Assembly: GCA_903923395.1 (NCBI GenBank)
Contig: CAIXXM010000031.1
Coordinates: 1 to 64,000, forward strand
DNA length: 64,000 nt
Source of the DNA: an uncultured Acidobacteriia bacterium
GTDB lineage: Bacteria > Acidobacteriota > Terriglobia > Bryobacterales > Bryobacteraceae
Direction: 5' to 3'
Position 1 is the first letter of the stretch. The number at the start of each line of letters is the position of its first letter. Made by a program: the position numbers and the translations under genes. This document shows, piece after piece, positions 54,395-55,575 of this stretch. The notes under the pieces are model-generated. The model ran no database searches. It saw nothing but the letters and a program-made list of their open reading frames with translations, and was not told the DNA's origin.

Positions 54395-54685
54395 TTATGA
54401 AGCTTTTCGGTCCAGCGCTTCTATTCTCATCTGCTGCGCGGAGATGGCTGTCATCAGTTTCAGGGTGCTGTCTGCGAGGGAGTCGACCTTCTCGTCGATG
54501 TGTTGCGCCGTTGTATCTGTCTGAATCAGGATTTCACCAAGTCTGGTGATCATGGCGTCCTGCCGCTTTTGTTCCTGCTCAAAATCAGCGTGCCGCTTTT
54601 CGGTGGCTGCTTCGAAGTCCACAAGTCTGTGGCCCAGCAACTCGAGATTCATTGTCAGAGCCTCGAGTCGTTCTTCAATCGTCAT
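54395..54685 (-). CDS. Small coiled-coil protein, unknown
   Basis: 96 residues, entirely helical and charged (IEERLEALTMNLELLGHRLVDFEAATEKRHADFEQEQKRQDAMITRLGEILIQ...IDEKVDSLADSTLKLMTAISAQQMRIEALDRK). Heptad-like spacing of Leu and Ile suggests an oligomeric coiled coil. Similar short proteins are scattered in Acidobacteriota without assigned function. It is on the same strand as the MDR reductase and divergent from the MarR-controlled unit. Confidence 0.55.
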   Translation of the reverse strand: MTIEERLEALTMNLELLGHRLVDFEAATEKRHADFEQEQKRQDAMITRLGEILIQTDTTAQHIDEKVDSLADSTLKLMTAISAQQMRIEALDRKAS

Positions 54686-54711: not shown

Positions 54712-54740
54712 TTGCTCCGGGCAAAGGGTGCAGGTAAAGT
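54712..54740 (+). promoter_or_regulatory. Promoter TTGCTC-17-TAAAGT of the MarR-controlled unit
   Basis: TTGCTC (54712-54717), a 17-base spacer, and TAAAGT (54735-54740), ending eight bases before ATG 54749. The predicted transcription start falls inside the palindrome at 54742-54755. Confidence 0.6.
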
Positions 54741-54741
54741 A

Positions 54742-54755
54742 GTTGCATATGCAAC
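54742..54755. promoter_or_regulatory. Perfect 14-bp palindrome GTTGCATATGCAAC, likely MarR operator
   Basis: The site covers the predicted transcription start and the ATG of the following gene. TTGC-n-GCAA palindromes of this length are the usual operators of MarR-family repressors, and a MarR gene is the second gene of this unit. A repressor here would block promoter escape and regulate its own synthesis. Confidence 0.75.
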
Positions 54756-55114
54756 GATTAATTCTCTTCCTCCTTGCGGCAGTATCTCTGTTCGCCCAGA
54801 ACCAGGCGCCTCCCAAAGTTACGCACGTCCTCGCCACGCTCACTGTGAAGCCCGGCGTGCAGCGCGAACAGATCATGAAGGTCATGCAGACGGAGGTGCG
54901 CGATACCGTCAACCTGTATCTGGATGGCAAGATCCAGCAATGGTGGGCGCGTGGCGATGGCAAGGGTGTGGTCTTCCTCCTGGATTGCAAGACGGTGGAA
55001 GAGGCGAAGGTCATTCTTGAGAAGCTTCCGCTGATCAAGGAGAATTTCGCGTCCTTTGACTACATGCCGCTGGGGCCGCTCTCTCCGCTGCGGTTGCTTG
55101 TGCAACAGCAATGA
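54749..55114 (+). CDS. Exported dimeric alpha/beta-barrel protein, muconolactone-isomerase-like
   Basis: 121 residues from ATG 54749 (TTG 54743 would add two). A leader (RLILFLLAAVSLFAQ) is followed by a ferredoxin-like domain: VTHVLATLTVKPGVQREQIMKVMQTEVRDTVNLYLDGKIQQWWARGDGKGVVFLLDCKTVEEAKVILEKLPLIKENFASFDYMPLGPLSPLRLLV. The WWARGDGKGVVFLL strand and the E.LPL..E....D..PL..L..L.LL end are typical of muconolactone-isomerase-like families. Activity is not proven and export makes a classical catabolic role unlikely. The MarR gene overlaps its stop by four bases, and a palindromic operator covers its start. Confidence 0.75.
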   Translation: MQRLILFLLAAVSLFAQNQAPPKVTHVLATLTVKPGVQREQIMKVMQTEVRDTVNLYLDGKIQQWWARGDGKGVVFLLDCKTVEEAKVILEKLPLIKENFASFDYMPLGPLSPLRLLVQQQ

Positions 55115-55575
55115 GTCTGCCCGATCTTGGTTGTGCGTGCGCCAACCTCCGGCGGGCGGCGCGTCTGGTCACGCAGTTGTACAGCGACTCGATGGGCGGC
55201 ACGCTGGAACCTGCGCAGTATTCGCTGCTCTCCGCATTGCACCGCGCCCCTGGCTTGAGCCAAACCCAACTCGGCCGCGTACTGGGGCTCGATAAGACGA
55301 CGCTCTCCCGGAACTTCAAGGTGCTGCAGAAGAACGGCTGGGTCGAGGTGGTACCTGCCGCCAGGGATAAGCGGGCGCGCGGTTACGGGTTAACGAAGGA
55401 TGGCCGGGAGATTCATGAAGCCGCCCTGCCGGGTTGGGCGACCGCGCAGGACAGGCTTCGGACAGCGCTTCCAGACGGGGAATGGGAGCGGTTGTTTGAT
55501 GTCCTCAATCGCGTGACCAGCGCGGCGGTGGCTCTAAATTCCGTACCTCACGGGTCAACTCACACTGCTCCTTAA
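55111..55575 (+). CDS. MarR-family transcriptional regulator
   Basis: 154 residues. Winged helix with the recognition region LSQTQLGRVLGLDKTTLSRNFKVLQKNGWVEVVPAARDKRARGYGLTKDGREI; this is the standard MarR layout with a basic wing. The long first and last helices form the dimer interface. The start overlaps the stop of the isomerase-like gene (ATGA), so the regulator is made together with its neighbour and should repress the operon from the palindrome at 54742. Cys8 and Cys10 in LGCACANL near the N-terminus could give redox sensing; that is speculation. The physiological inducer is unknown. Confidence 0.9.
   Translation: MSLPDLGCACANLRRAARLVTQLYSDSMGGTLEPAQYSLLSALHRAPGLSQTQLGRVLGLDKTTLSRNFKVLQKNGWVEVVPAARDKRARGYGLTKDGREIHEAALPGWATAQDRLRTALPDGEWERLFDVLNRVTSAAVALNSVPHGSTHTAP

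Follow-up and report, generated by a model that had tools for sequence, protein, structure and literature searches.

Results

Two co-directional genes on the plus strand mark the locus within the window, by which we mean the whole 64,000-nucleotide stretch of DNA analyzed. The first (54749–55114, +) encodes a 121-residue protein with a hydrophobic N-terminal segment and a predicted muconolactone-isomerase-like ferredoxin fold, the second (55111–55575, +) a MarR-family repressor of 154 residues. The stop codon of the former (TGA, 55112–55114) overlaps the ATG of the latter at 55111, giving ATGA. The candidate operator, the 14-bp palindrome GTTGCATATGCAAC (54742–54755, no strand assigned), covers the predicted transcription start and the ATG of the exported protein at 54749. 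A previous sequence-only reading of this DNA had pointed out the exact palindrome over that start codon and the ATGA overlap, and both were confirmed. The promoter it proposed, TTGCTC-17-TAAAGT, was recovered in part: the hexamers (putative −35, 54712–54717, +; putative −10, 54735–54740, +) and their spacing are present, but the −10 element abuts the operator with a gap of one base, not two. A 96-residue coiled-coil-like ORF without a clear family (54395–54685, −) runs divergently from the operon across their common short intergenic region.

Of the 12 promoter hexamer positions, only 7 agree with the sigma-70 consensus, and for this reason the promoter fell below the threshold of the consensus scan. 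L076, L077, L078, and L081 also have a TTGC(A/T/G)C hexamer with a −10-like hexamer at a distance of 17 bp, and most relatives carry '..TA' directly 5′ of the operator. A possible auxiliary half-site pair, GTTGCTTGTGCAAC (55093–55106, no strand assigned), directly precedes the MarR start codon with both 5-bp arms intact, and GTTGCNNNNGCAAC was seen twice in the window, at this site and at the operator only, as compared to 0.12 expected occurrences. The GTTGCTTGTGCAAC site showed no conservation among the relatives compared, so it is possibly due to chance.

Conservation of the operator with the gene pair

A perfect 14-bp palindrome alone, taken without its conservation, is unremarkable in 64 kb: the window contains three, as compared to about 4.6 expected from shuffles. 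It is conservation, not the rarity of the palindrome, that carries the signal. The gene pair was collected by a whole-genome search of relatives and from named public genomes, whose identity points to a Bryobacterales/Solibacter-type Acidobacteriota as the source of the window. An operator was counted if GTTGCATATGCAAC occurred with up to three mismatches in the 250 bp upstream of the exported-protein gene. Conservation of the palindrome upstream of orthologous pairs was the test set by the sequence-only reading, and the operator was kept in all 19 loci with a downstream co-directional MarR gene, in 17 of them with at most one mismatch. None of the 27 exported-protein homologues without a co-directional MarR had it (Fisher 2e-13, a value that overstates independence, since the compared loci are related by descent). 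In alignments anchored on the site, 117 diverged pairs were 96% identical in the operator columns and 26–37% identical in the flanks. Slightly degenerate and partly doubled operators were found in L088, L089, and L093. In L084 and L085, the MarR gene is divergent, its helix is of another type, and the operator is absent. L008 and L063, which have no partner gene, carry a degenerate operator copy over the start of the MarR gene itself.

These comparisons bear on the reading that only the −10 region and the start of the signal peptide are conserved and that there is no operator. The 3′ half of the palindrome does encode Met-Gln in many loci, as such a constraint would have it. However, conservation is just as high in the non-coding 5′ half, next to diverged flanks, L083 and L094 have a different frame, and the 27 homologues without MarR have no site. 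The locus comparison thus largely refutes this reading, which is almost certainly wrong.

The ATG within the palindrome is the in-frame start of the exported protein in 12 of 19 loci, the window included, and none of these 12 has an evident alternative start led by a Shine–Dalgarno sequence. The transcripts of these loci are thus probably leaderless, and that of the window leaderless or nearly so. In L083, L087, L093, L094, and L096, the start codon is downstream of the palindrome, usually led by a Shine–Dalgarno sequence, and the palindrome is still kept. It therefore seems to be conserved as DNA rather than as coding sequence or as an RNA hairpin. A hairpin controlling translation, with a 5-bp stem and the AUG in or beside the loop, could indeed form, as an RNA beginning at 54742 can fold over its first 14 nt into GUUGC-AUAU-GCAAC (z = −2.3, 59 nt), and the position of the ATG within the palindrome in many loci would suit it. 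However, transcription is predicted to begin inside the palindrome, which would leave the 5′ arm out of the RNA. The palindrome is also equally conserved in L083, L094, and L096, where the start is downstream and Shine–Dalgarno-led or out of frame, and its presence tracks MarR, with half-sites that covary with the recognition helix. We consider an action in RNA very unlikely.

Recognition helix and regulon size

The MarR protein matched PF12802 (59.4 bits, cut-off 27; E = 4e-16) and PF01047 (44 bits, cut-off 24.6), both above their curated cut-offs, in agreement with the winged helix noticed earlier. For 57 MarR relatives, we aligned the recognition helices and listed the nearest palindrome of the NNTG...CANN type. 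Helices ending in SR(N/D/S/G), including DKTTLSRN in the window, were accompanied by NTTG half-sites in 24 of 25 cases and the other helices in 0 of 14, with the reservation that the classes were drawn after the data had been seen and that the proteins compared are related. Helices reading DSTTLTRT or DRTSLYRA pair with (G/T/C)ATG half-sites, and DRTTLTRN helices with (C/T)GTG. The association would be difficult to account for if these proteins did not recognize such sites. As the half-site changes with the recognition helix, the MarR protein of the window very probably reads the palindrome. The conserved candidate operator would thus be the palindromic site at its own promoter that is characteristic of the family.

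A genome-wide pattern search showed that GTTGCATATGCAAC has its sole exact copy in the 6.15-Mb genome at this locus, and the only site with one mismatch falls inside a KBL/BioF-type coding sequence. The search with mismatches thus gave no second promoter-like site, which bears out the earlier description of the exported partner as the only visible target. In 101 related genomes, GTTGYATATRCAAC had 13 matches as compared to 2 for a reversed control pattern. Ten of the 13 lie before this gene pair, one lies beside a related MarR gene, and two are elsewhere (G023 and G075), neither with a MarR or partner gene in its vicinity; in G075, the match falls within a DUF1501-like ORF. With about one site per genome and matches adjoining this type of MarR, the protein appears to be a local regulator controlling its own operon. 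The operator could in principle belong to another, global regulator, as the site is tied to MarR by comparison only. The number of sites per genome and the strict co-occurrence of the site with this MarR speak against such an assignment, which we regard as extremely unlikely.

Cysteines of the MarR protein

The only cysteines of the MarR protein are C8 and C10, which form a CxC pair at the start of helix 1. C8 is invariant in the group, and C10 is present in 16 of 17 members. Among solved proteins, a profile search with the group placed MosR (4fx0/4fx4) far ahead of all others as the closest relative (E = 9e-30), with CxC aligned to CxC. The pair thus stands at the N-terminus of helix 1, as in MosR-like regulators; the target is exported-looking and has a predicted muconolactone-isomerase fold, and is not a secreted oxidoreductase. 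Because the pair is nearly invariant and the nearest solved relative uses Cys10–Cys12, release of this MarR protein from DNA by oxidants is, on balance, likely.

The same autorepressor on the same operator could also be released by a small-molecule ligand such as a lactone or an aromatic acid, which may be the partner's own substrate, with a structural or secondary role for the cysteines. Most characterized MarR proteins respond to ligands (PMC5823404, PMC5487221), and ClcF and TftG, relatives of the partner in fold, act on intermediates of aromatic degradation. The near-invariance of the CxC pair in the group points the other way, and so does MosR, a redox sensor that uses precisely this pair. 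We therefore treat release by a ligand as possible but rather doubtful.

Two other assignments were rejected. The 2-Cys OhrR mechanism is ruled out because the protein lacks further cysteines besides C8 and C10, and hence a second one in helix 5. A match to the Saro_0803-type regulator (NF053777) reached 40.6 bits against a curated cut-off of 200.

The MarR relatives in L021, L151, L155, L156, L157, L158, and L166 have the first cysteine only (CxA/CxG) and similar NTTGYATATACAAN sites, and form a natural comparison set for the CxC pair. Their half-sites suggest that the second cysteine is dispensable for DNA binding, and the window MarR may accordingly respond to a ligand or through the reaction of a single cysteine.

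Exported partner and neighboring genes

We inferred export of the 121-residue partner from its N-terminal hydrophobic segment, as judged by eye. Against PF02426 (muconolactone delta-isomerase), the partner scored 24.4 bits (E = 3e-5), under the gathering cut-off of 26.7, and 35 of 42 homologues matched this family at E values up to 0.01. A PDB search with the partner sequence gave no credible relative, whereas the fold search gave matches. The model built from a 42-sequence alignment had a mean pLDDT of 88 and agreed with the ferredoxin fold proposed from the sequence alone. It resembled ClcF (3zo7; Z = 12.4 over 90 residues, 3.6 Å; Foldseek E = 1e-4), as well as HI0828 and TftG of the TftG/YciI types (Z = 10.9), well above unrelated entries. 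The predicted model thus has the fold of the muconolactone-isomerase superfamily. E49 and W65 are among the residues invariant in the homologues (n = 42).

Partner homologues, sometimes in tandem, adjoin TetR genes in L091, L100, L101, L103, L112, L114, and L115, mostly in other Acidobacteriota, and some have no recognized regulator nearby. Different repressors have thus been coupled to the same exported protein, and redox control is not essential to its function.

A third gene, encoding a conserved exported protein of an unnamed family, follows MarR in L076 (6859–7548) and also in L074, L077, L078, L088, L093, and L094. Its product carries the motif GYVKxKDxxNxFTCxVSRRGG...MFYAPYLTxxDIGG...HGMIIV, had no Pfam match in the two members scanned, and gave a poor model (pLDDT 64). 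The gene was undetected in the genome of the window by a search without a positive control. Beyond the pair and this third exported gene (about seven loci), no flanking gene was conserved. Elsewhere, MarR relatives adjoin a gene for a 4Fe-4S protein with a weak SCP2 match (Pfam, L071 protein) in L071 (3680–5026) and L072 (3000–4385), and the two genes of L072 are separated by a stretch that contains a GTTGTATATACAAC palindrome.

Discussion

Conservation of the operator, its linkage to MarR, its uniqueness in the genome, the covariation of helix and half-site, the CxC pair, and the predicted fold of the partner can all be read from the sequences. From these we strongly infer that MarR binds the operator and regulates its own operon. 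Autoregulation was also the main conclusion of the sequence-only reading, and the presence of the operator wherever the co-directional pair exists argues for it.

The best model, which we hold with good confidence, is that of an oxidant-released, MosR-like autorepressor that acts on GTTGCATATGCAAC and controls an exported protein. A MarR dimer would bind the operator over the transcription start and the start codon, block RNA polymerase, and so repress both the exported-protein gene and its own. Oxidation of, or electrophilic attack on, Cys8/Cys10, probably yielding a C8–C10 disulfide, would loosen DNA binding. An oxidant or electrophile would thereby raise the export of the muconolactone-isomerase-fold protein, which may act outside the cytoplasm on a small, probably oxidized or lactone- or quinone-like compound. 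Accumulating MarR would then shut the operon again. A broader proposal is offered only tentatively: the unit may be a recurrent oxidant- or electrophile-response operon of Bryobacterales, not described before, in which a CxC MarR protein would control the export of an enzyme of muconolactone-isomerase fold, often along with a third exported protein. Outside the cytoplasm, a reactive lactone- or quinone-like compound would thereby be destroyed, and the operator would be placed over a leaderless start.

To the first reading, the analysis adds the CxC pair, the partner's muconolactone-isomerase fold, the finding that half-sites covary with the recognition helix, and the recurrent in-frame ATG of the operator. 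It provides a concrete, testable unit of regulator, operator, and target in Acidobacteria, an abundant group of soil bacteria with little-studied genetics. It also extends CxC (MosR-like) redox regulators, with predicted operators, beyond mycobacteria, and points to an exported family of muconolactone-isomerase fold. Within this MarR subfamily, operators could be predicted from the relation between recognition helix and half-site.

Compared with known systems, the gene pair and its operator are very probably a further example of an established type, the MarR/MosR-type local autorepressor. It has an unstudied exported target and a recurrent layout with the operator over the start; the exact operator was not found in print in the literature searched. 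MosR (Rv1049, Mycobacterium tuberculosis) has an identical CxC placement at helix 1. It is described as a redox-dependent repressor that controls the gene of a secreted protein and loses DNA affinity through an intrachain Cys10–Cys12 disulfide (PMC5823404). The MosR target is an oxidoreductase, whereas a protein of muconolactone-isomerase fold takes that place here.

EstR of Agrobacterium tumefaciens, which binds the 14-bp palindrome GTTATCGCGATAAC over the −10 element (PMC5201249), shows that a cysteine-sensing MarR protein with such a palindrome over the promoter is an established arrangement. EstR/EstC shares with our system a MarR repressor with an N-terminal cysteine (the sensing Cys16 in EstR), a 14-bp palindrome over the promoter, autoregulation (predicted here), and a regulator gene next to its target. 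It differs in its divergent genes with two operators, the operator sequence GTTATCGCGATAAC, its esterase target, and its 34-nt mRNA leader (PMC5201249). OhrR (B. subtilis, X. campestris) resembles the window MarR in its cysteine-sensing MarR fold and autorepression. However, its 2-Cys form links Cys22 to Cys127′ between subunits, whereas our protein has only C8 and C10, and its operator is another one (TACAATT-AATTGTA in A. tumefaciens). The partner shares its predicted fold and a weak Pfam MIase match with ClcF/muconolactone isomerase and the TftG/YciI types. Unlike these, it has an N-terminal export segment, is about 18–20% identical to them, and lies outside any evident aromatic-degradation cluster.
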